IMG/VR virus record: IMGVR_UViG_3300030380_005249
Location: 1-22,481 of that record
Direction: 5' to 3' (one strand)
Source of the DNA: a virus
DNA: 22,481 bases
The notes below the pieces were generated by a model that saw only the letters and a list, made by a program, of their open reading frames with translations, was not told the DNA's origin and did no database searches. Position numbers and translations under genes: made by a program. Shown here piece after piece: positions 2,313-16,489 of the stretch (within the stretch, counting starts at the first letter, position 1; the number at the start of each line of letters is the position of its first letter).

Positions 2313-2771
2313 ATGGCTCTAATCATAAATGATAGAGTTAAAGAAACAAGCACCACTTCAGGAACGGTTACGTTACAACTTGCTGGTGCTTCACAGGATT
2401 TTATAACTTTTGTATCTGGAATTGGTACAGGTAATACTACGTATTATTGTATATCAGAAACAGGTACAGATAAGTTTGAAGTCGGTATTGGCACAGTTAC
2501 CGATGCTTCTCCCGATACTCTATCTAGAGATACAGTGATAAGTAATTCATCAGGAAATACTTCTAAGATTAATTTTGGTTCAGGAGAAAAAGAAGTATTT
2601 TGTACTGTACCTGCTAAGAAAGCAATGTCACCTGTTATGCAAGCAACAGGTTACGTTGTAACTCATGCATCTACATTAGATGAGGTTCAAACGATGGATT
2701 CAGGTGTACTAGCAGGACCAGTAACAGTAACAGGAACAATAACAGTAACAGGGAATTTAATAATAATATGA
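2313..2771 (+). CDS. Tail-associated virion protein, beta-rich (marine-phage family)
   Basis: A 152-residue protein with the order DRVKET (start), QDFITFVSGIGTGNTTYYCI, DKFEVGIGTV, DTLSRDTVISNSSGN, and GEKEVFCTVPAKKA. I recognise this series from many marine and cyanophage tail-fibre regions, where it is a small beta-sandwich protein at the base of fibre genes. Residues after about 110 form a distinct tail ending in Thr/Val repeats (GPVTVTGTITVTG) that resemble the repeat protein at 11249. The ribosome site GGAGG overlaps the preceding stop (TAAGGAGG). The stop overlaps the next start (ATGA), which couples it to the glycine-rich fibre. It may be the attachment partner of that fibre; this is inference. 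Confidence 0.55.
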   Translation: MALIINDRVKETSTTSGTVTLQLAGASQDFITFVSGIGTGNTTYYCISETGTDKFEVGIGTVTDASPDTLSRDTVISNSSGNTSKINFGSGEKEVFCTVPAKKAMSPVMQATGYVVTHASTLDEVQTMDSGVLAGPVTVTGTITVTGNLIII

Positions 2772-4180
2772 GCACTTTAGAAGTAGATAAGGTTATACCA
2801 CAATCAGGTACTAGTACTCAAATAGGTGAGAATGGTGATACTATTACAGTTCCTACAGGAGCTACTTTAGATGTATCTAATGCTACACTTTCGTTACCCT
2901 CAACTGTTGTAACAACTACAGGAACACAAACTTTAACAAATAAATCAATTGCTTCATCTCAAATTACAGGAACAATTACACCAACAGATAACACTGTTAC
3001 CCTTGCAAAACTTACAGCAAGTGGAACTAAAGATAATACTACTTTTTTAAGAGGAGATAATACTTTTGCTACTGCAGGTGTTTCAACTTTTGCAGCTTTA
3101 TCAGATACAACAGTTTCATCTTCTAATCCAACAAATACATCAAATAAAACACCCGTGGGACACATTTGGGTAAATAGCACTTCAGGAGAAGCTTATATTT
3201 TAACTGACGCAACAACTAATCAAAACACATGGCAAAACATTGGTGAAGGTTCTGGAAACATAAATTATTTTCCAGGTCTTACATCATTAACTATGATTGG
3301 TGGTGGCGGAAGTGGTGCAGGAGATATGGCAGGTGGAGGAGGAGCAGGTGGTCTTCTACATTTCACAGGTTACAGAGGCACAATTCAATATGGTACACAA
3401 TATACTATTACAGTAGGTCAAGGTGGTTCTTCTGTAGTTGCTCAAAACGATGGTAATAATGGTAACAACACAACAGCTTTTGGTGAAACTGCAGGAGGTG
3501 GTTTTGGAGGTTCAGCATCGGGTGGCTCTGGTGGGGGTGGAAGTACAGGCGGTGGTGATAGTGGTTCAGCAACTACTTCAACAAGTAATACTTTATATAC
3601 TTCATTTAACGGTTATTCGAATGACGGTGGAGATAATACTGGAAACCCTGGAGCAGGAGGAGCAGGTGCAGGTGCAAATGGTGTAACTCCTCCATCTGGA
3701 AACGGACCTGGTGGAGCAGGTGGTGTAGGAATTCAACTGGCAAATGTTTATAATGGTTCAGATAATTATTATTGGGCTGGCGGCGGAGGCGGTGCTGGTT
3801 ATGGAGATACTGAAAATGGCGGCGCTGGAGGTCTTGGCGGCGGAGGCGGAGGCGGAAAATTCCGAACAACTGGAGGTGGCTCTGGTGGTGCGGGAGGTGG
3901 CTCTGCTTTAAATAATGGTACTGCAGGAACTGGTAACAATGGTGCTGGAAATGGTGGTGCTGCTGGAGCCAATACAGGTGCAGGTGGAGGTAATGCTTCG
4001 CATCATGGTGGTGGACAATCAAGTTCAGCTAGTGGTGCAGGGGGTTCTGGAATAGTTATGATTAAAACACCAGACTCTTATACAACAGCAACAACTACAG
4101 GAAGTCCAGTTTTTACAAACACAGGAGGATATAAATATTATGCGTTCACAAGTTCTGGAACAATAACATTTAATACATAA
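2768..4180 (+). CDS. Tail fibre with glycine-rich adhesin domain
   Basis: A 470-residue protein. Residues 1-35 carry an anchor motif (LEVDKVIPQSGTSTQIGENG) that recurs in the genes at 4498 and 7724. Residues 35-100 look like a phage fibre stalk (TTTGTQTLTNKSI, then LRGDNTF). Residues 105-165 form a small domain with PVGHIWVNSTSGEAYI and TWQNIGEG. From about 175 to 425 the protein is extremely Gly-rich (GGGGSGAG, YTITVGQGG, a seven-Gly run near 357-363). It ends in a short beta segment (SGIVMIKTPDSY, GGYKYYAFTSSG). Such domains form polyglycine sandwiches in phage adhesins and bind surface receptors, so this is probably a receptor-binding tip. The reverse-strand frame over it is a composition artefact. 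Confidence 0.75.
   Translation: MSTLEVDKVIPQSGTSTQIGENGDTITVPTGATLDVSNATLSLPSTVVTTTGTQTLTNKSIASSQITGTITPTDNTVTLAKLTASGTKDNTTFLRGDNTFATAGVSTFAALSDTTVSSSNPTNTSNKTPVGHIWVNSTSGEAYILTDATTNQNTWQNIGEGSGNINYFPGLTSLTMIGGGGSGAGDMAGGGGAGGLLHFTGYRGTIQYGTQYTITVGQGGSSVVAQNDGNNGNNTTAFGETAGGGFGGSASGGSGGGGSTGGGDSGSATTSTSNTLYTSFNGYSNDGGDNTGNPGAGGAGAGANGVTPPSGNGPGGAGGVGIQLANVYNGSDNYYWAGGGGGAGYGDTENGGAGGLGGGGGGGKFRTTGGGSGGAGGGSALNNGTAGTGNNGAGNGGAAGANTGAGGGNASHHGGGQSSSASGAGGSGIVMIKTPDSYTTATTTGSPVFTNTGGYKYYAFTSSGTITFNT
3779..3856 (+). repeat. GGC/GGA simple-repeat patch inside the glycine-rich adhesin
   Basis: Nine GGC glycine codons fall within these 78 bases, in three clusters, ending in a run of seven consecutive Gly codons alternating GGC and GGA (3836-3856). 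Elsewhere the gene mostly uses GGT and GGA. The patch is the most GC-rich stretch I noticed in this AT-rich window. Its 3- and 6-nt periodicity could change length by slippage while keeping the frame. Confidence 0.6.
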
Positions 4181-4184
4181 AATT

Positions 4185-4505
4185 ATGAATAAAAGATTTG
4201 CAAGAATAAATAGTTTAACTAAAAAAGTAGATACTGTTATTGTGGCTACTGATGAATTTATTAATTCTTTACCAGATTATGATTTATGGATTGCTTCATC
4301 TGTAGAAAATACAAAAAAACTAGCTGATAAAAATGATATATATGATGTTGATAATAATAATTTTAAAGGATTTAAACCTTATGATTCATGGGTTTTTAAT
4401 AATAGCACATGGAATTGGGAACCACCTATCGCTATGCCAGATCAAACAAATGAAGAAGTTTATAATTGGAATGAAGAAACACAAACATGGGATTTAAATG
4501 AGTGA
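4185..4505 (+). CDS. Small Trp-rich fibre-associated protein, possible fibre assembly factor
   Basis: A 106-residue, very AT-rich gene. The N-terminal part (RFARINSLTKKVDTVIVATDEF) is beta-like. The C-terminal half has repeated Trp motifs: FKPYDSWVFNNSTWNWEPP, then YNWNEETQTWDLN. I recognise the pattern SWVxxxxTxxWExPxxxP...YxWxExTxxW from small genes next to tail-fibre genes in cyanophages, where it is suspected to be a fibre chaperone or a fibre-tip component. No function is proven to my knowledge. No clear ribosome site precedes the ATG, which begins 5 nt after the upstream stop, so translational coupling is likely. It overlaps the next gene by 8 nt. Confidence 0.5.
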   Translation: MNKRFARINSLTKKVDTVIVATDEFINSLPDYDLWIASSVENTKKLADKNDIYDVDNNNFKGFKPYDSWVFNNSTWNWEPPIAMPDQTNEEVYNWNEETQTWDLNE

Positions 4506-5262
4506 AGTAAAAGTAAATAAAATCAGTCCAAGATCGGGGACAACTGTAACAATGGGAGACTCTGGAGATACGGTTGTATTTCCATCTAATGCTTTACAAA
4601 ATTCATCTTTACCTGGCTCAGGACAAATTACAATTAATGGTCAAGCAGTAGCCCTTGGTGGATCTATAACATTAACAACTGAAACAAGACCAACTTTTAC
4701 ATCTATAACTCCAAATGTAATTGAAAATACACAAACAACTTGTGTAATAGCAGGTGGTAGTTTTGTATCTGTACCATTAGTTACAGCAATTAATTCAACT
4801 ACAGGTGCTAGAGTATCTGCTGATGAAGTAGCTTTTAATTCTGCAGCACAAATTACAGTAAAATTTACATTGCCTGTTGATGGCACTTATTTATTATATA
4901 TTGAAAACCCAGACGGTAATGCAGTTCAAACATCTGCAGTACTTACAGTTTCTGATGCACCAGCATGGCAAACTGCAGCAGGATCATTAGGTACATTTGT
5001 GGCTGGAACAAGTTTTGGAACAATTACATTAACAGCAACAAATTCTGTATCAATGGCAAAAGCATCTGGAAACTTTCCTGGTGGTATGTCCATTAACAGT
5101 GGCTCAGGTTCGTCTACACTTACAGGTACAGAATCGGGTGCTACTGCTAACACAACATATACTTTTACAATTCGTGCAACTGACGCTCAAGGACAAACTG
5201 CGGATCGTCAGTTTACAATAACAATAACAGTAGGAGCAGGTGGATCTATGGGATTCAACTAG
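4498..5262 (+). CDS. Tail fibre: anchor motif, IPT/TIG-like domain, Ig-like domain (cassette copy 1, gene 1)
   Basis: A 254-residue protein. Residues 1-30 hold the shared anchor motif (VKVNKISPRSGTTVTMGDSG). Residues about 65-152 form an IPT/TIG-like immunoglobulin fold (PTFTSITPNVIENTQ, INSTTGARVSADEV, LPVDGTYLLYIENPDG). Residues about 155-248 form a second Ig-like domain of the He_PIG type (AGSLGTFVAGTSFGTITLTA, FPGGMSINSGSG, FTIRATDAQGQTADRQF). It probably acts as a fibre stalk presenting or binding carbohydrate. The gene at 7724 has the same two C-terminal domains, with a long stretch of identical residues near the end. The downstream genes 5272 and 6636 complete a cassette that is repeated at 7724-11245. 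Confidence 0.7.
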   Translation: MSEVKVNKISPRSGTTVTMGDSGDTVVFPSNALQNSSLPGSGQITINGQAVALGGSITLTTETRPTFTSITPNVIENTQTTCVIAGGSFVSVPLVTAINSTTGARVSADEVAFNSAAQITVKFTLPVDGTYLLYIENPDGNAVQTSAVLTVSDAPAWQTAAGSLGTFVAGTSFGTITLTATNSVSMAKASGNFPGGMSINSGSGSSTLTGTESGATANTTYTFTIRATDAQGQTADRQFTITITVGAGGSMGFN

Positions 5263-5271
5263 GATATTATT

Positions 5272-6630
5272 ATGGCAGCAACTTCATTATCACGAACACC
5301 AAGTTCAACAGGAAACAGAAGAACATTTACATTAAGCGTGTGGTGTAAAAAAATGTCTTCAAGTCAAATGAATTTTTTAGGAGCAGGTGCAAGTAATGCA
5401 CAAAATCATATTCAATTTGAAAATAATAGATTTCAAATGAGATATTACACTTCTTCAAATACTACAATAGTAAACACTGATGCTTTATTAAGAGATGAAA
5501 GTGCTTGGTATCATCTTGTTTGTGCGGTGGATACCACACAAGCTACAGCAAGCAATAGAATAAAGCTATATATTAATGGAGAACAACAAAGTTTAAATGA
5601 TGAAACATTTCCTGGACAAAATGGTGATTGGGGCTTCAATGTAAGTGGTGAAACAATGTACATAGGCAGAAGAGGACATAGTGCTGCTTATTATTATGAT
5701 GGTGAAATGGCTCATTTTGCATGGGTTGATGGACAACAATTAACACCAAGTACATTTGGTGAAACCGATTCAACTTCAGGTATTTGGAAATGGAAAGACA
5801 TAACGGGAGTTACTTGGGGTACAAATGGTTTCTATTTAAAATTTGAAAACTCTGCAGCACTTGGTACAGATAGTTCAGGTCAATCAAATACATTTACAGT
5901 TGCTGGAAGTGCTACAAGAAATATAGATAATCCATCAGTAAACTATAATACGTTAAATGGAGTTTCAAATCCATCAAGTGGTTATACTTTATCTAATGCA
6001 AATACAGAATGCACTGTAAGTGGTCAAAGTTTTGTAAGAACATTTATTGCAAATACACTTTGTCCTGAAAGTGGTAAATGGTATTGGGAATCAAAATTAG
6101 TTACTTCTGGAGCTTCTGATAGGACATCTCTTGGTATTTGTTCAACTGAAGAAAATATAGGAACAGGAACTACTATACCACAAAATGAATGTAGTATCTG
6201 TACAGGATATTCAAGAATAAGATTTACAGTAGCAGGAAGTGTTACAGAAGTTGATAGTTTTTATACAGTCCCATCTGCAGGTGATATTTTTATGTATGCT
6301 TTAGATTTAGATAATACAAAATTTTATTTTGGTGTTAATGGAAATTGGTGGAATTATAATTCTGCACAAACAGGAGGTGATCCAACATCAGGTAGTGGCT
6401 ATGTTACAAATAATTCAAGTATAATTCATGGTGCTATGTCGTTATTTATAAGAACACAAGCAGGAGCATCAGCAACAACATTTACTAACCAATTTAATTT
6501 TGGCAATGGATATTTTGGTACAACAGCTATAACTTCTGCAGGATCTAATGGGAATGGAAGTTTGTTTGAATATGATGTACCATCAGGATATTACGGATTA
6601 AATACAAAAAATATAAATACTTACGGATAG
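5272..6630 (+). CDS. LamG-like plus SPRY-like tail fibre / adhesin (cassette copy 1, gene 2)
   Basis: A 452-residue protein. Residues about 15-170 form a concanavalin-A-like (LamG/laminin-G) domain: FTLSVWCKKMSSS, WYHLVCAVDTTQAT, NRIKLYINGEQQ, TMYIGRRG, YDGEMAHFAWVDGQQL. A linker follows (FGETDSTSGIWKWK, YLKFENSAALGTDSSGQSN). Residues about 250-430 form a SPRY-like domain (SGKWYWESKLV, YALDLDNTKFYFGVNGNWW, FNFGNGYFG). Both domains are beta-sandwiches common in phage receptor-binding proteins; LamG often binds glycans. The order LamG, linker, SPRY is a known marine-phage fibre arrangement. The gene at 8935 is its paralogue with the same order. A TAGGAT sequence overlapping the upstream stop may serve as ribosome site. 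Confidence 0.7.
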   Translation: MAATSLSRTPSSTGNRRTFTLSVWCKKMSSSQMNFLGAGASNAQNHIQFENNRFQMRYYTSSNTTIVNTDALLRDESAWYHLVCAVDTTQATASNRIKLYINGEQQSLNDETFPGQNGDWGFNVSGETMYIGRRGHSAAYYYDGEMAHFAWVDGQQLTPSTFGETDSTSGIWKWKDITGVTWGTNGFYLKFENSAALGTDSSGQSNTFTVAGSATRNIDNPSVNYNTLNGVSNPSSGYTLSNANTECTVSGQSFVRTFIANTLCPESGKWYWESKLVTSGASDRTSLGICSTEENIGTGTTIPQNECSICTGYSRIRFTVAGSVTEVDSFYTVPSAGDIFMYALDLDNTKFYFGVNGNWWNYNSAQTGGDPTSGSGYVTNNSSIIHGAMSLFIRTQAGASATTFTNQFNFGNGYFGTTAITSAGSNGNGSLFEYDVPSGYYGLNTKNINTYG

Positions 6631-6635
6631 AAATT

Positions 6636-7721
6636 ATGGCTTATAGTTCAATTGTAAAACCTTCTGATTATTTTAATACTAGACTTTATACAGGTAATGG
6701 TAGCACACAACATAGTATTACAGGTGTAGGATTACAACCAGATTTAACATGGATTAAATCAAGAAGTGATGCTTATAATCATTTTTTATTTGATGCTGTT
6801 AGAGGTGTAGGAAAACAAATCTATTCAAATGCAACTAGTGTAGAAGCTACAAATATGAATAATTTATATGCATTTAATGCTGATGGGTTTTCTTTAGCTC
6901 AATCTGGAAATGATGATGTTACTAATAAAAATAATTCTAATTTTGCATCATGGAATTGGAAAGCAGGAACAACAGGTTCTGGAACTACAACAGGTTCTGG
7001 GACAGGTAAGGCATACACTTATTCTGTAAATACAACAGCAGGATTTAGTATTATAGGTTATAAAGGTAATGGAACAGCAGGTCATACTATACCACATCAT
7101 TTAGGAGTTACACCTGACACAATTATTGTTAAAAATAGAGATTATGCTAGAAATTGGTCTGTTTATCATAAAAATGCTTTCACATCTCAAGCAGCTCCTG
7201 GAGTATTATATTTGAATACAACTGCAGCAAAAGCTAATGATGTAAATGTTTGGGGTAACTCAAGTGTTACTATTAACTCAACTGTATTTAGTTTAGGGGA
7301 TTATGAGGGGACAAATCGAAACGATGATGATTTAGTAGCTTACTGTTTTGCAGAGAAAAAAGGTTACTCAAGTTTTGGACCTTACACTGGAAATGGAAGT
7401 GCTAGCGATGGACCTTTTGTTTACACAGGTTTTAAACCAGCTTTTGTTATGACAAAAAGAATAGATAATACTGGAGGTTGGGGTATGAATGATAATCGAA
7501 GACCAGGTTATAATGTTGCACATCAATATTTACTTGCAAACGATAGTCAAGGAGAAGCAACTGATGGAAGTTGGAGTATGGATTTATTAAGTAATGGTTG
7601 GAAAGCTAGATATAATAATGGTAATTACAATGCTGATGGCGGTTCTTATGTTTATTGGGCATTTGCAGAAGAACCTTTAGTAGCAAACGTAGGAGCAGGA
7701 GTACCAGCAACGGCAAGATAA
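6636..7721 (+). CDS. DUF7483-like tail-fibre protein (cassette copy 1, gene 3)
   Basis: A 361-residue protein. It starts with DYFNTRLYTGNGSTQ, ITGVGLQPDLTWIKSR and FDAVRG, then ASWNWKAG (around residue 105). A second half begins with FSIIGYKGNGTAGHTIPHHL and GVTPDTIIVKNRD, followed by DDLVAYCFAEKKGYSSFG, YTGNGSASDGPFVYTGFKPA, and ends YVYWAFAEEPLV. The repeated Y(T/K)GNG followed by QPD, TPD or KPA points to three internal repeats of one beta unit. I know this family from fibre regions of cyanophages and other marine phages (DUF7483, number from memory). It normally sits after LamG-type genes, as here. Function is unproven; virion surface attachment is likely. The gene at 10235 is its paralogue. 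Confidence 0.65.
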   Translation: MAYSSIVKPSDYFNTRLYTGNGSTQHSITGVGLQPDLTWIKSRSDAYNHFLFDAVRGVGKQIYSNATSVEATNMNNLYAFNADGFSLAQSGNDDVTNKNNSNFASWNWKAGTTGSGTTTGSGTGKAYTYSVNTTAGFSIIGYKGNGTAGHTIPHHLGVTPDTIIVKNRDYARNWSVYHKNAFTSQAAPGVLYLNTTAAKANDVNVWGNSSVTINSTVFSLGDYEGTNRNDDDLVAYCFAEKKGYSSFGPYTGNGSASDGPFVYTGFKPAFVMTKRIDNTGGWGMNDNRRPGYNVAHQYLLANDSQGEATDGSWSMDLLSNGWKARYNNGNYNADGGSYVYWAFAEEPLVANVGAGVPATAR

Positions 7722-7723
7722 TT

Positions 7724-8935
7724 ATGAGTAGTATATTAAAAGTAAATACAATAGTACCTGAATCAGGCTCTACAATAACAATTGGAGAGTCAGGTGATGT
7801 AATAAAAAATATTGGTCCTGCTATTACTGCAACTCAAGGAACTTCTTCTAATCCAATAACATTTACAGTGACTGTAGCTGCAAAAACTTCAGGTAATGTT
7901 TACAATGGTGCAGGAAGTTCTAATGCTTATTATATAAATGGTGTTGAAGCTCCAGCTATTTTAATTGAAGGTAATGAATCTTCTTCTTATGAATATTACT
8001 ATAGATTTGATCAATCAGATGCTTCTAATGGAAATGGTGGAGGACATCCCTTAAGATTTTATTTAGATGCAGCTAAAGGACAAATATTTTCAACAAATGT
8101 AACAACTAATGGTACACCAGGTCAAGCAGGAGCTTACACACAAATTAAAGTAGGGGGTTATACTCCACATGTTTTATATTACCAATGTAGTAATCATGGC
8201 TTTATGGGTAATAAAATTATTAACCCAGCTACAAAAACTTTAAACCTAAGCGGAGCTGCAATAACTTTACCAACAGGCACAGGTAGTGCAGATCAAGTCA
8301 TAAAAGTTTCAAGTATATCTAATGGTGTTTCAACTTTAAGTTTTGGAGACCCTGTAACTTTTCCAGTGGTATCATCTATTAGTCCAAGTGTTATTGAAAA
8401 CACAGCCACTAATGTTGTAATTACAGGTACAAATTTTAAAGATAGTTCAACACCACCAACTGTTGATGCAATTAATTCATCTACTGGTGCGATAGTCACT
8501 GCAAACTCTGTAACCTTTACAAGTGCAACTTCTATAACTGCAAACTTTACTTTACCAGTTGATGGTACTTATTTTTTAAGAGTAGAAAATAGTGATGGTC
8601 TTGCAGCAAGATCATCTTCTGCATTATTAACTGTATCTGATGCACCTGGATGGACAACTTCGGCAGGAAATTTAGGAACAGTTGCTGCTTTAGGAAGTGT
8701 TAATTTTACGGTCGCAGCGACTAATGCTACAGCTTTTGCAAAAGTATCTGGCACTTTTCCAGGTGGTGTAACTATTAATAATTCTGGTGTAATATCAGGT
8801 ACTGAATCAGGCTCAACTGATACGACTACGTATACGTTTACTATACGAGCAACGGATGCACAGGGCCAAACAGCGGATCGTCAGTTTAATATTATTATAT
8901 CTCACGGTGCAAGTGGAGGAGGACAATTTAACTAA
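7724..8935 (+). CDS. Tail fibre: anchor motif, cupredoxin-like domain, IPT/TIG-like and Ig-like domains (cassette copy 2, gene 1)
   Basis: I take the ATG at 7724 (403 residues), not the longer frame open from 7655, because it places the anchor motif (LKVNTIVPESGSTITIGESG) at the N-terminus as in its paralogues and avoids a 67-nt overlap. Residues about 33-170 form a cupredoxin-like beta domain, with GHPLRF (His108), TNGTPGQAGAYTQI and YYQCSNHGFMGNKI (Cys155, His158, Met161). These are the four residue types that hold copper in type-1 or CuA-type cupredoxins; metal binding here is not proven. Residues about 225-310 are IPT/TIG-like and about 315-398 are He_PIG-like. Compared with the gene at 4498, the cupredoxin-like block is an insertion between the anchor and the IPT domain. 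The stop overlaps the next start (TAATG). Confidence 0.7.
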   Translation: MSSILKVNTIVPESGSTITIGESGDVIKNIGPAITATQGTSSNPITFTVTVAAKTSGNVYNGAGSSNAYYINGVEAPAILIEGNESSSYEYYYRFDQSDASNGNGGGHPLRFYLDAAKGQIFSTNVTTNGTPGQAGAYTQIKVGGYTPHVLYYQCSNHGFMGNKIINPATKTLNLSGAAITLPTGTGSADQVIKVSSISNGVSTLSFGDPVTFPVVSSISPSVIENTATNVVITGTNFKDSSTPPTVDAINSSTGAIVTANSVTFTSATSITANFTLPVDGTYFLRVENSDGLAARSSSALLTVSDAPGWTTSAGNLGTVAALGSVNFTVAATNATAFAKVSGTFPGGVTINNSGVISGTESGSTDTTTYTFTIRATDAQGQTADRQFNIIISHGASGGGQFN

Positions 8936-10233
8936 TGGCTAGTACATATATAAAAAGAGATTTATCAGTTTCAGAAACAATTTATAAATATACTTGGTCT
9001 GCTTGGATTAAAAGAACTGGTCTTGGAGTTGCTGGAGATTTATTTAAAAGTAGAGCAGATGGTAATAATTGGGTTCAAGCTTATCTTGAAACTGATAATA
9101 AATTTATTTTACAAAGTTATAAAAATGGTGGTTATCATTATAATTACAAAACAAATAGAGTGTTTAGAGATGTTAATGGTTGGTATCATTTTGTTATAAA
9201 TGTAGATAGTTCACAAGGAACAGCAGGAGATAGAGTAAGAATTTATGTCAACGGCGAAAGAATTACTTCTTTTGGGACATCAACTAATAATTTGTCTAAT
9301 GGTGATACTTTAATTTTTAATACATCAGATAGTGGAACAGGTCATACTATTGGTTCATGGAACGCAGGAACATATTTTGATGGCCTTATGTCCCATGTAC
9401 ACTATTCTTCAGGTTATTCTTATGCACCTACAGTATTTGGTTCAACAGACAGTACAACTGGAGAGTGGAAAATTATAACTTCTCCTACTTTTACATTAGG
9501 TGGTAATGGGTATACAGTTTTAAAAGATGGAAATACAATTACAGACCAATCGTCTAACTCTAACGACTTTACATTAGGTGGTGGCACACTATCTAATACT
9601 AAAGATTGTCCCAGCAATGTTTTTTGTACTATGAACTCATTAGCAGCAGGTTCAGATATGACTTTTGGAAATGGTAGTACCAAAATTAGAAATGATGTAG
9701 GTACATGGAATAGTGGATTAGGAACTATAGCTATGGGAACTGGTAAATATTATTGGGAAGTTTATGTACATGGTGGTGGAGATAACAATACTGGAGTAAC
9801 TTTATCAAGTGCAGATGGTACTACTCATAGTAGTGTTGACGCAGGTAGATGTGTTTATTCAAGGAATGGTTACATTTATAGAGAAGGTTTATCAGGTCAA
9901 GGTAATGTTTCTACAGGTGTAACTTATGCAGATGGTGATTATATTGGAGTTGCTTTTGATAGTGAAAATGGAGTTTTAACATTTTATAAAAATGGAACTG
10001 CTGTAACTAATGGTGCTACTACCGACACATCTTTTTTACGTACTAATAATGAATATATACCACAATGTGGTTTATATAATGGTGGAGAATTTAGATTTAA
10101 TTTTGGTAATGGAGCATTTGGTTCTACACAACTTACTGGAACAACCTATCAAGGGGACGGAAATAATGGTATATTTAAATATGATCCACCAACAGGATTT
10201 ACAGCTTTATCAACTAAAGGATTAAACCAATAA
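8935..10233 (+). CDS. LamG-like plus SPRY-like tail fibre / adhesin (cassette copy 2, gene 2)
   Basis: A 432-residue protein. The N-terminal LamG-like domain (about 10-165) shows YTWSAWIKRTGLG, NGWYHFVINVDSSQGTAGD, VRIYVNGERITSF, HTIGSW and YFDGLMSHVHYSSG. It is followed by the same linker as its paralogue (FGSTDSTTGEWK, GNTITDQSSNSNDF). The SPRY-like domain (about 240-415) has TGKYYWEVYVHGG, DYIGVAFDSENGVLTFYKNG and FRFNFGNGAFGS, and the protein ends KYDPPTGFTALSTKGLNQ. Every landmark aligns with the gene at 5272, but intervening residues differ widely, consistent with a change in receptor specificity. The start overlaps the upstream stop (TAATG) with no separate strong ribosome site. Confidence 0.7.
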   Translation: MASTYIKRDLSVSETIYKYTWSAWIKRTGLGVAGDLFKSRADGNNWVQAYLETDNKFILQSYKNGGYHYNYKTNRVFRDVNGWYHFVINVDSSQGTAGDRVRIYVNGERITSFGTSTNNLSNGDTLIFNTSDSGTGHTIGSWNAGTYFDGLMSHVHYSSGYSYAPTVFGSTDSTTGEWKIITSPTFTLGGNGYTVLKDGNTITDQSSNSNDFTLGGGTLSNTKDCPSNVFCTMNSLAAGSDMTFGNGSTKIRNDVGTWNSGLGTIAMGTGKYYWEVYVHGGGDNNTGVTLSSADGTTHSSVDAGRCVYSRNGYIYREGLSGQGNVSTGVTYADGDYIGVAFDSENGVLTFYKNGTAVTNGATTDTSFLRTNNEYIPQCGLYNGGEFRFNFGNGAFGSTQLTGTTYQGDGNNGIFKYDPPTGFTALSTKGLNQ

Positions 10234-10234
10234 T

Positions 10235-11245
10235 ATGGCATACACAACTATAAATAAATCTGCAGATCATTTTAATACATTACTTTATTCTGGTAATGGT
10301 TCAGCAAGAACTGTAACAGGTGTTGGATTTCAACCTGATTTTTTTTGGATTAAACAAAGAAGTAGTAATCAAGGCCATTTACTTTGGAACGTTTTAAAAG
10401 GTGGTAATTATTATCAACCGTCTTCAAATACTGCGGCAAGTGCAGCTGATATTGGAACTTTTACTGCTGCATCAGATGGTTATAGTTTAGCAACAGATGG
10501 TGCTTATAATGGTAATAGCCAAACTTATGTTGGTTGGAACTGGAAAGCAGGTGGTGGTCAAGGTTCATCAAATACTGATGGTTCTATAAATACTACTTAT
10601 ACTTCAGTAAATACTACGGCAGGTTTTTCAATGTCACAATACACAGGTACAGGAAGTAATGCTACTGTTGGCCATGGTTTAGGTGTTGCGCCTAAATTTA
10701 TTATAGTCAAGTGTATAAGTCATGTCGGAGATTGGATGGTTTATTATGGAGATCCTACAGATTTTTTTAAATTAAATGAAGATAATGCAACAGAAGATTT
10801 AGATACAGTTTGGTATGATACTGCTCCAACAAATTCAGTTTTTAGTCTTGGTAGTAATGGTGATGTAAATACAAGTGGAAGAACTTATATAGCCTACTGT
10901 TTTGCAGAAAAAATTGGCTACAGCAAGATGGGTACATATGTAGGTAATGGTAATTCTAACGGAAATTTTTTATACACTGGTTTTAGACCTTCTTGGTTTT
11001 TAGTTAAAAGAACTGCACAAGAAGCTTGGATTTTGACAGATAGCCAAAGAGGTTTTCCGCAAAGTTGGAATTATCTTATACCTAACACAAACGGTTCAGA
11101 ACAAGGTGGTTTACCTTATGACTTTGTAAGTAACGGAATAAAATTTAGAGGTACAACACAAAATGAAAGTGGAAGTACTTACGCCTACATGATTTTTGGT
11201 CAAACATTAGTTGGATCTAATAATATACCATGTACAGCGAGGTAA
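10235..11245 (+). CDS. DUF7483-like tail-fibre protein (cassette copy 2, gene 3)
   Basis: A 336-residue paralogue of the gene at 6636. Landmarks in order are DHFNTLLYSGNGSARTVTGV, GFQPDFFWIKQRSS, GWNWKAGGGQ, FSMSQYTGTGSNATVGHGLG, VAPKFIIVKC, YIAYCFAEKIGYSKMGTYVG, FLYTGFRPSWFLVKR and YAYMIFGQTLV, ending PCTAR (the paralogue ends PATAR). The triple beta-unit layout is kept. The ATG starts 2 nt after the upstream stop without a clear ribosome site, so reinitiation by ribosomes leaving the LamG-SPRY gene is likely. It probably lies on the virion surface together with the two preceding proteins. Confidence 0.65.
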   Translation: MAYTTINKSADHFNTLLYSGNGSARTVTGVGFQPDFFWIKQRSSNQGHLLWNVLKGGNYYQPSSNTAASAADIGTFTAASDGYSLATDGAYNGNSQTYVGWNWKAGGGQGSSNTDGSINTTYTSVNTTAGFSMSQYTGTGSNATVGHGLGVAPKFIIVKCISHVGDWMVYYGDPTDFFKLNEDNATEDLDTVWYDTAPTNSVFSLGSNGDVNTSGRTYIAYCFAEKIGYSKMGTYVGNGNSNGNFLYTGFRPSWFLVKRTAQEAWILTDSQRGFPQSWNYLIPNTNGSEQGGLPYDFVSNGIKFRGTTQNESGSTYAYMIFGQTLVGSNNIPCTAR

Positions 11246-13555: not shown

Positions 13556-13878
13556 TGTTTCTAAAACCACAAAAAATAATATTTGATTCAATAATAAAAA
13601 GATATAATATTAAAGATATTAAACCTAATCAATTTAATAATAATCAAGAACTTATAGATCAACTTGAGATTGATATAAAACTTAACGGTTTGTTATGTCC
13701 ATTAGTTGTTAATAATAATGTATTAATTGATGGCCATCATAGATATGAAGCTATTAAAAATTTTTGTACAGAAACACTTGTTTATGTGGTAAAAGATAAT
13801 GATATGGAAAAATTACTATCAAAGCTAAATAGTTATATTTGGTTCGATTACCAAGGTAAACTTGATGGAGACAGCTAG
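13555..13878 (+). CDS. Small ParB-like nuclease-fold protein, GTG start
   Basis: A 107-residue protein starting at GTG 13555, overlapping the upstream stop by one base. Residues about 17-70 match the N-terminal ParB domain: a short strand (YNIKDIKPNQF), a helix with ELIDQLEIDIKLNGLLCPLV, then NNNVLIDGHHRYEAIKNF. The DGHHRYEA box (residues 59-66) is the phosphate/nucleotide-binding signature of this fold. There is no DNA-binding or dimerisation domain, so partition function is unlikely. Single-domain ParB-like proteins act variously as CTPases, nucleases or kinase-like enzymes; which applies here is unknown. The gene is very AT-rich (Asn, Ile and Lys from AAT, ATA and AAA) and overlaps the oxygenase gene, with which it seems to form a pair. 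Confidence 0.7.
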   Translation: MFLKPQKIIFDSIIKRYNIKDIKPNQFNNNQELIDQLEIDIKLNGLLCPLVVNNNVLIDGHHRYEAIKNFCTETLVYVVKDNDMEKLLSKLNSYIWFDYQGKLDGDS

Positions 13879-14551
13879 AATATTAGGATCTCTTATAGGT
13901 ATATCAAAATTAAATAATTTTGAAAAAATAAATAAAGAACTAATACCTGTAATTGAAAAAGATATTTGTCCTCCAGAGTATAGGAAAAGATACTATGAAT
14001 CTCATCAAACAGGTTTTTCTTTTACTTCTGATAAAGCAGCACAACTAGGTTCTTTTGAATCTTTATATGGCGATCAATTACAATTAAATAATAAATTTAA
14101 TAATTTTTTTAATGAGTTAAAAATAAACTTAAATATCTTTTTAGAAAATTTAAAATATAAAAATGTTGATTATTTTATAACAAAATCATGGGTAGCATAC
14201 ACAGATAAAGGTGATCATATATCGGCTCACGATCATGGAGCTAGTCATTTTAGTTTTGTTTACTATGTTCTTAAAAATAAAAATCATTCTTCTCTAACAT
14301 TCTATGAACCAACTCAAAGATTTTATATGCCAGAAGCAACAGAGTGGAATGATCAAAACCATCAAAACTTAATAATTAATAATGAGCCTGGTCAATTAAT
14401 TATATTTCCTAGTTCACTTAAACATGGAACACAAAAAACAGAAGAAAAGTCACCCCGTATATCAATAAGTGGAGACATTATTATGACATCTCAAAAAAAC
14501 AAAGTAAGTGAGATTTTAATACCTAACCCTTCTACTTGGAAGAAGCTATAA
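13865..14551 (+). CDS. 2-oxoglutarate/Fe(II)-dependent oxygenase
   Basis: A 228-residue protein from ATG 13865, with an AAGG site 8 nt upstream; a TTG at 13862 would add one residue. The core shows the double-stranded beta-helix landmarks of phage 2OG oxygenases: SWVAYTDKGDHISAHDHGAS with His122 and His124, HFSFVYYVL, SSLTFYEP, PGQLIIFPSSLKHGT with His187, and PRISISGDI with Arg198 for 2-oxoglutarate. The first ligand motif is H-x-H rather than the usual H-x-D, as in the family often named 2OG-FeII_Oxy_5. It should hydroxylate a substrate while turning 2-oxoglutarate and oxygen into succinate and carbon dioxide. The substrate is not evident. The gene lies in a structural operon upstream of three glycosyltransferases, so a virion protein is one candidate. 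The gene is markedly AT-rich. Confidence 0.75.
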   Translation: METARILGSLIGISKLNNFEKINKELIPVIEKDICPPEYRKRYYESHQTGFSFTSDKAAQLGSFESLYGDQLQLNNKFNNFFNELKINLNIFLENLKYKNVDYFITKSWVAYTDKGDHISAHDHGASHFSFVYYVLKNKNHSSLTFYEPTQRFYMPEATEWNDQNHQNLIINNEPGQLIIFPSSLKHGTQKTEEKSPRISISGDIIMTSQKNKVSEILIPNPSTWKKL

Positions 14552-14569
14552 AATGTAGTAAAATACATT

Positions 14570-16489
14570 ATGCCTTTAACAAATGTTCAAATAAGACCAG
14601 GATTAAATAAATCAGACACTCCTTCAGGTGCTGAGGGCCAATGGATAGATGGTAACTTTGTAAGATTTAGATATGGTCAACCTGAAAAAATAGGTGGTTT
14701 TCAAGCTATCGGTCAAAAAACAATATCTGGTCCTGCCAGAGCTCAACATTGTTGGAATGATTTAGAAGGAAGAAAATATTCAGCATTAGGAACATCAAAA
14801 GCATTATATATTTATTATGAAGATGCTTTTTATGACATTACACCTTTAGCTACTGCATTAACAGGAGCTACGTTTACATCAACGGCAAGTTCCAGCACAA
14901 TAACTGTTAATAAAAATTCACATGCTTTAGATGTAGGTGAGTACATTACTTTTACATCTGTGACAGTACCAGGATCATCTTCTTTTGTAGACACGGATTT
15001 TACAAGTTTTACTTTTGAAATATTAACGACTACTACAAATTCTTTTACAATAACTATGCAAACCACTGAAACAGGAACACCAATGACGGCCGCTGGATCA
15101 GCTAGTATAAACCCATATGAAGAAATAGGGCCTACCATCCAAACGTATGGATATGGTTGGGGTACAAGCACATGGGGAACTGTCGGTTGGGGTAATCAAA
15201 CAACATCAACCCAAGTAATTCTAGACCCTGGATCATGGTCATTAGATAATTTTGGACAAGTATTAATCGCAACTATAAAAGACGGTAAAACATTTACCTG
15301 GAACGCTGGTGCAGCCAATCCTTTACAAACACGAGCAACATTAATGACAGGAGCTCCAACTGCTTCTAGACTTACAATTGTTTCAGACAGAGATAGGCAC
15401 GTCGTTCATTTTGGAACTGAAACTACAATAGGAAATACTACTACACAAGATCCAATGTTCATAAGATTTTCCAATCAAGAAGATTTTAATACTTATCTAC
15501 CTACTTCAACAAATACTGCTGGAACATTTAGACTAGATACAGGTAATAAAATAGTAGCTGCAGTTTCTGGTAAAGACTATAATTTAATATTAACAGATAC
15601 AGCCGCTTATGTTATGCAATTTGTTGGGCCACCTTTTACATTTTCTATTAGACAAGTAGGTTCTAACTGCGGATGTATTGGACAGCATGCTGTTGTTTAT
15701 GCAGATGGTCAAGTATTTTGGATGGGGACAGGTGGAGGTTTTTTTAAATACGACGGTACAGTAAAACTACTACCTTCTTTAGTAGAAGATTTTGTTTTTA
15801 CTACAAATGGAGATAATATTGGTGTAAATTATTCATCAAATGAAATTATATATGCATCACACAATTCTTTATTTAATGAAATAATATGGTTTTACCCAGC
15901 AGGTAAACCTTTAACAAATCCAGCTGTTCAAAATAACAGATCTGTAGTTTATAATTATGTAGAAAATACTTGGTCGATTATGACATTAGCCAGAAGTACT
16001 TATCATGATGCATCAACATATGACTTACCTTACGCAACGGAATACGATTCAACTGGAACTCCTTCTTTTGCAGGTTTGAGTGGAGCTACAAATACTTTTG
16101 GCGCAAGTAAATATTTTGCACAAGAAACAGGAACTAATATTGTAGATCTAAACGGTACAGAAACTCCAATTGCAGCGTTTATACAATCAGGTGATTTCGA
16201 TTTACCACAGGAAGGGGACGGTCAATTCTTAATGAGAATAAGTAGATTTTTACCTGATTTTAAAAATTTGCAAGGTAATGCAGTGATTACAATAAACCTT
16301 AAAGATTTTCCAATTGATGCAAACGCTTCTTCTTCATTAGGGCCTTTTACTATAAATTCAACCACACAAAAAATTGATACTAGAGCTAGAGGAAGATTAG
16401 CTAATTTAAAAATAGAAAACACTGCTAATAATGAAACATGGAGATTTGGAACTTTTAGAGCAGATGTAAATGTGGATGGAAGAAGATAA
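14570..16489 (+). CDS. Large tail hub / nozzle protein (T7 gp12 / P22 gp10-like)
   Basis: A 639-residue protein. The start (VQIRPGLNKSDTPSGAEGQW, then NFVRFRYGQPEKIGGF) is the hallmark of a large virion protein of marine and rose podoviruses and relatives, which I place with the beta-propeller hub or stopper proteins of short tails. Later landmarks are YSALGTSKALYIYYED, WGTSTWGTVGWG, LDNFGQVLIATIKDGKTFTW, IVSDRDRHVVHFG, YNLILTDTAAYVMQF, GQVFWMGTGGGFFKYDG and SVVYNYVENTWSIM; they look like successive propeller blades. A Cys pair (SNCGCIGQHA) sits near residue 366. The tail of the protein (EGDGQFLMRISRFLPDF) is also family-typical. It would close the tail tube and hold the DNA. No clear ribosome site precedes the ATG. 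Confidence 0.7.
   Translation: MPLTNVQIRPGLNKSDTPSGAEGQWIDGNFVRFRYGQPEKIGGFQAIGQKTISGPARAQHCWNDLEGRKYSALGTSKALYIYYEDAFYDITPLATALTGATFTSTASSSTITVNKNSHALDVGEYITFTSVTVPGSSSFVDTDFTSFTFEILTTTTNSFTITMQTTETGTPMTAAGSASINPYEEIGPTIQTYGYGWGTSTWGTVGWGNQTTSTQVILDPGSWSLDNFGQVLIATIKDGKTFTWNAGAANPLQTRATLMTGAPTASRLTIVSDRDRHVVHFGTETTIGNTTTQDPMFIRFSNQEDFNTYLPTSTNTAGTFRLDTGNKIVAAVSGKDYNLILTDTAAYVMQFVGPPFTFSIRQVGSNCGCIGQHAVVYADGQVFWMGTGGGFFKYDGTVKLLPSLVEDFVFTTNGDNIGVNYSSNEIIYASHNSLFNEIIWFYPAGKPLTNPAVQNNRSVVYNYVENTWSIMTLARSTYHDASTYDLPYATEYDSTGTPSFAGLSGATNTFGASKYFAQETGTNIVDLNGTETPIAAFIQSGDFDLPQEGDGQFLMRISRFLPDFKNLQGNAVITINLKDFPIDANASSSLGPFTINSTTQKIDTRARGRLANLKIENTANNETWRFGTFRADVNVDGRR

Follow-up and report, generated by a model that had tools for sequence, protein, structure and literature searches.

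The window, by which we mean the whole stretch of DNA analysed (an IMG/VR record of 22.5 kb), has structural genes that look like those of Pelagibacter phages: HTVC023P has a protein with 90% identity to that of the ORF at 14570, and the records matched by the window's DNA number 13, of which 12 are Pelagibacter phages. Inside the tail gene cluster, positions 13862-14551 hold an ORF that by eye resembles a 2OG-Fe(II) oxygenase, and the matching region of HTVC023P has three ORFs annotated as 2OG-Fe(II) oxygenase plus a putative ferrochelatase. The tail-fibre-like protein analysed here, its parts and its paralogue lie as follows:

4498..5259, + strand: paralogue without the cupredoxin-like domain, by sequence comparison
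7724..8932, + strand: tail-fibre-like protein of 403 aa, starting at ATG 7724 (PHROG 30742, Pfam He_PIG)
7730..7804, + strand: N-terminal tag, aa 3-27, common to the fibre-like proteins at 2768 and 4498 (48-56% identity over 25 aa)
7856..8221, + strand: predicted cupredoxin-fold domain, aa 45-166 (~120 aa), from first to last modelled strand (AlphaFold2 model, structural matches)
8045..8047, + strand: His108, predicted copper ligand 1, in GHPLRF (aa 107-112) at a strand start
8186..8188, + strand: Cys155, predicted copper ligand 2, in CSNHGFM (aa 155-161); sole Cys of the protein
8195..8197, + strand: His158, predicted copper ligand 3, in CSNHGFM
8204..8206, + strand: Met161, predicted axial copper ligand; sole Met besides the start
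8357..8932, + strand: C-terminal Ig-like part, common to the 4498 paralogue and HTVC104P gp66/gp71

The 7724 protein matches PHROG 30742 (tail fiber protein) with E 1.8e-29 and comprises, in order, the N-terminal tag, the cupredoxin-like domain, a linker and the Ig-like part with He_PIG (Ig-like) at its C-terminus (aa 327-392); no signal peptide is evident in this virion protein. With its paralogue at 4498 it has just two stretches in common, 25 aa of the tag at 56% identity and 196 aa of the C-terminal Ig-like part at 58%, and sequence comparison found no counterpart of the cupredoxin-like block there, as the preliminary description of this DNA had stated. HTVC104P gp66 and gp71 have the C-terminal part alone in common with the 7724 protein (60% and 48%, respectively) and are also without the block. 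At both 4498 and 7724 the protein is the first of a three-gene cassette, and the two cassettes (4498-5272-6636 and 7724-8935-10235) are duplicates whose counterparts are 58% (C-terminal part), 31% and 38% identical; this tandem duplication, 4498-7721 plus 7724-11245, comprises an Ig-like fibre protein, a LamG/SPRY-type protein and a DUF7483-type protein. Pelagibacter phage HTVC104P also has the doubled cassette (gp71-69 and gp66-64), with other N-termini and no cupredoxin-like domain. Since the domain is missing from the paralogue and from the HTVC104P cassettes, it sits in an exchangeable N-terminal module. The block is thus indeed extra, but rather than being inserted into a finished fibre, as had been proposed, it is better seen as belonging to a variable N-terminal module (tag, domain and linker) on a shared C-terminal part. 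The tag, MSxxLKVNxIxPxSGxTxxxGxxGDxI, opens three fibre-like proteins in the window (2768-2863, 4498-4593 and 7724-7804), a sequence similarity which suggests that several fibres use one common attachment site.

His108, Cys155, His158 and Met161, numbered from ATG 7724, are all at the positions first reported for them, and give the type-1 order H...C-x(n)-H-x(n)-M with one Cys, two His and an axial Met. The arrangement resembles that of amicyanin, pseudoazurin and plastocyanin (PF00127, PF13473), with a His in the loop before a strand, a Cys ending a later strand, and then His and Met, and the loop C-x2-H-x2-M has the spacing of type-1 amicyanin (CTPHPFM in 1AAC, CSNHGFM here). Of the two site types originally suggested, type-1 agrees with this spacing and with the ligand set and its order, whereas CuA (C-x3-C-x3-H-x2-M, two Cys bridging two coppers) is excluded by the protein's single Cys. 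We also rejected a disulfide role for Cys155, given a single Cys in the whole protein and exactly one in 101 of the 104 domains collected, and an HxH iron site, there being no HxH in the protein, whose only His are at 108, 149, 158 and 394. Cys, His and Met are otherwise scarce in these proteins: the one at 7724 contains a single Cys, four His and, apart from the start, one Met. Some orthologues of about 400 aa have no His and no Cys beyond the ligands; L005 and L020, of ~400 residues each, contain no His but the two ligands. The residue after the first ligand His is Pro, where Asn or Ser is usual in cupredoxins, but this is not fatal to the copper-site reading because multicopper oxidases also have Pro after the corresponding His (NHPIHLHG, AHPMHLHG).

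Ligand conservation is far beyond chance. In the 104 collected sequences the four ligand positions are the four most informative of the 139 domain columns, and all four ligands are kept in 102 of 103 complete homologues, the exception being L022. As a safeguard against retrieval bias we searched with a ligand-free query, the N-terminal part of the domain, and all four ligands were present in 78 of 78 unique homologues among the matches listed. In a second ligand-blind scan, 12 of 14 complete members keep the set, L227 and L228 being without the whole set, and one further member is truncated. Conservation stood up to these two tests for motif-biased retrieval, and the ligands do not vary freely among homologues, the outcome that had been named beforehand as refuting the proposal; their near-perfect invariance is a direct observation. 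The 7724 protein conforms to the family signature YxFDQSDxSN...HPLRF...GTPGQAGAYTQI...LYYxCxxHxxMG, and cultured-phage copies scoring merely E 1e-4 still read HPF...CxxHxxM; among divergent cultured-phage copies, one has C-x2-H-x3-M and two are without the motif. Variants of the loop occur. L022 (4600-5007), a close homologue, shows joint ligand loss, with Cys replaced by Ser and His by Asn (QSSSNSFMGN), and so offers a natural protein for comparison; L032 (5959-6354) has a two-residue insertion in the ligand loop (CNTNGHNYMGN); and L246, with C-x2-H-x3-M, is a natural loop-length variant.

We compared the domain profile with one built from bacterial small blue copper proteins (amicyanin/pseudoazurin) collected for the analysis. 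The two aligned in register, HPLRF opposite HNVHF and YYQCSNHGFM opposite YHCTPHPFM, with a score of 29.8 (P 1.5e-4) that none of 200 column-shuffled controls reached (null mean 9.5, maximum 21); with the C-x2-H-x2-M subset the score was 32.5 (P 5e-5). Masking the ligand columns lowered it to 16.9 (P 0.036), yet this was still above all 150 masked shuffles. The profile similarity to blue copper proteins thus leans on the ligand columns. Pfam and NCBIfam cupredoxin models (PF00127 Copper-bind, PF13473 Cupredoxin_1 and amicyanin TIGR02657) did not match the 7724 protein, nor did a PDB sequence search with it give a match; a PDB search with the domain profile gave weak matches only (a nanobody, 0.47, and pseudoazurin, 1.3), and hhalign of the profile against multicopper-oxidase domains gave no signal. 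The most divergent phage copies matched PDB cupredoxins at E 0.0015 and the Cupredoxin_1, Copper-bind, rusticyanin and amicyanin models at E 3.5e-4 to 1e-3, always under the curated cut-offs. Judged by curated sequence models, the domain is thus filed under no named blue-copper family. Pfam PF25489 (At5g54830-like) was a recurrent sub-threshold match.

The AlphaFold2 model of the cupredoxin-like domain alone, from an alignment with 41 homologues, had a pLDDT of 91.6 (95-97 in the ligand-bearing blocks) and a pTM of 0.87. It has eight strands, with a His at a strand start, the Cys at a strand end and His and Met in the next loop, as in cupredoxins. In Foldseek searches against the PDB the top match was rusticyanin (E 8e-4), followed by copper nitrite reductase (CuNIR) and laccases, with modest TM-scores of 0.40-0.48; at rank 10 stood a nitrite reductase into which the amicyanin loop CTPHPFM had been engineered. 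VIA-align matched residues 26-137 of three-domain CuNIR (3.0 A over 101 residues) with a Z of 8.7, barely above the range reached by common folds, and the best 50 matches listed were all copper nitrite reductases, laccases or other multicopper oxidases, rusticyanin or factor VIII. Matches of the model in BFVD were to marine phage fibres, with some giant-virus beta-sandwich proteins ranking behind. The cupredoxin-like fold proposed for the block is accordingly supported, the model matching type-1 copper proteins almost exclusively, and as predicted the domain is a cupredoxin fold at the superfamily level. Judged by topology and alignment register, the four ligand side chains would converge.

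Relatives of the domain are numerous in marine phages, as had been surmised for their fibres: a scan of IMG/VR yielded 263 and the ligand-blind scan at least 547 confirmed viral relatives. The carrier phages, whose hosts are Pelagibacter, Prochlorococcus, Synechococcus and Methylophilales, have the domain in fibre or baseplate proteins, and include the cultured Synechococcus phage Bellamy, P-SSM2, P-TIM68, S-TIM5, Pelagibacter phages Mosig and Baldr, Methylophilales phage Melnitz and P-HM1 (gp7). Several genomes have more than one match (four in P-SSM2), and in complete ORFs the domain is internal in 87, N-terminal in 53 and C-terminal in 12. It belongs to a large marine-phage family shuffled between fibre and baseplate proteins. 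In Prochlorococcus phage P-HM1 (L098/L249), the baseplate wedge protein gp7 has >4,000 aa, and a ligand-bearing copy adjoins a related copy without CxxHxxM.

Cupredoxins are periplasmic or extracellular redox proteins and also occur as domains of copper enzymes. The domain of the 7724 protein differs from the small blue copper proteins in falling below Pfam/NCBIfam detection and in belonging to a virion protein in which no signal peptide is evident. Its first His is followed by Pro rather than Asn, and its two ligand halves are separated by a long conserved GTPGQAGAYTQI stretch. Rusticyanin and the N-terminal cupredoxin domain of three-domain CuNIR, its best structural matches, share only 13-19% identity with it, have other ligand-loop lengths and are periplasmic redox proteins. 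Metal sites in phage fibres have precedent in the iron-binding HxH motifs of the tail fibres of T4 gp37 and alterophage R22Y (PMC11705849), proposed sites that likewise have marine trace-metal implications; those, however, are octahedral His sites of a fibre trimer, whereas the 7724 protein has a predicted single-chain, four-ligand site with Cys and Met.

On balance, and with moderate confidence, we favour the reading of the block as a domain of cupredoxin fold that holds a complete type-1 (blue) copper site, is probably metal-loaded and would serve fibre stability or attachment. That the site binds copper in the finished particle we infer because selection holds exactly the residues of the copper set and their losses are joint. 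The protein is synthesised in the cytoplasm, which has minimal free copper, and, as it has no evident export route of its own, the metal would be taken up on or after lysis, with cell debris or seawater as the presumptive source of copper. Less certainly than copper binding itself, the metal would lock the small domain, which lies directly behind the N-terminal tag of the tail-fibre-like protein, into a rigid form, most likely for fibre stability and/or attachment rather than electron transport. We rate as improbable the far-reaching version in which marine phages whose hosts are the ocean's most abundant bacteria bear genuine blue-copper sites on fibres or baseplates, copper occupancy governs attachment or receptor choice, and virions form a strongly bound marine copper pool.

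Several other readings share part of this evidence. There is a modest chance that fold and ligands are right and yet the physiological metal is not copper but, say, Zn(II) or none in particular, or that the site takes up any soft metal it meets and is just a structural clip: the model and the conservation are silent on metal identity, cupredoxin sites take Zn, Co, Hg and Ag in vitro, and a virion protein is made in a copper-poor cytoplasm. Met161, however, is as invariant as the other ligands, and one Cys and two His completed by a Met make up the classic copper set; Met is seldom a ligand in zinc sites. We think it unlikely that the four residues never hold metal and are kept for packing or by descent in a beta-sandwich derived from a cupredoxin. 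Metal-free Ig-like sandwiches are commonplace in fibres, and members without the residues do persist (L022, L227/L228 and one P-HM1 gp7 copy), but the ligand columns are the most conserved even at an overall identity of ~40% or below, also in ligand-blind retrieval, the losses are joint, and for a lone free Cys, conserved in a virion surface protein, no packing role is obvious.

Two further proposals give the copper site, as such, another task. The domain might mimic a secreted copper carrier and dock on an outer-membrane receptor for copper or another metal, as a copper 'Trojan horse'; this is possible but unsupported and in our view very unlikely, as the domain lies directly behind the N-terminal tag and not obviously at the tip, TonB-type receptors are few in picocyanobacteria and SAR11, and no receptor was identified. 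Both the HxH iron sites of phage tails and the Trojan-horse idea have been published (PMC11705849), and an interaction of secreted azurin with OprC, a copper receptor of the outer membrane, has been reported, as discussed in PMC8610252, but the azurin-OprC complex was not seen in that study itself and the precedent is disputed. A redox task for the site at the surface of the host, or a shielding of the particle from reactive oxygen species, seems hardly credible: there is no partner, ligands for catalytic type-2/3 copper are absent, and none of the window ORFs and families examined is evidently coupled to it. Such a task would accord with the fact that type-1 sites are normally redox sites.

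If the copper-site reading is true, phages of Pelagibacter, Prochlorococcus, Synechococcus and Methylophilales may carry copper on their fibres, and a large, ligand-invariant cupredoxin family in their virion proteins would add copper to the discussion of iron in phage tails, offer studies of phage adsorption a concrete, measurable metal site and pose the problem of how copper reaches a particle that is assembled in the cytoplasm. Our literature search, lying mostly outside subscription journals, found no publication joining cupredoxins to tail fibres or type 1 copper to phage virions. The family is open to testing in the cultured phages Bellamy, P-SSM2, S-TIM5, Mosig and Melnitz. Like the proteins of PHROG 30742, these carry the same domain (PSSM2_295 in P-SSM2, gp121 in Bellamy), in proteins annotated as tail fibre, virion structural, baseplate or hypothetical, and the records of the cultured-phage carriers hold no cupredoxin or metal-binding annotation. 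Outside virus collections, only nine loci came from one scan of 84,980 genomes of bacteria and archaea, on contigs that may be viral or cellular. Three of the contigs bearing the domain, which may be of phage or cellular origin, are assigned to Epulopiscium (L087), a marine Euryarchaeota MAG (L089) and a SAR116 single cell, the last with a 2,870-aa open frame (L090).
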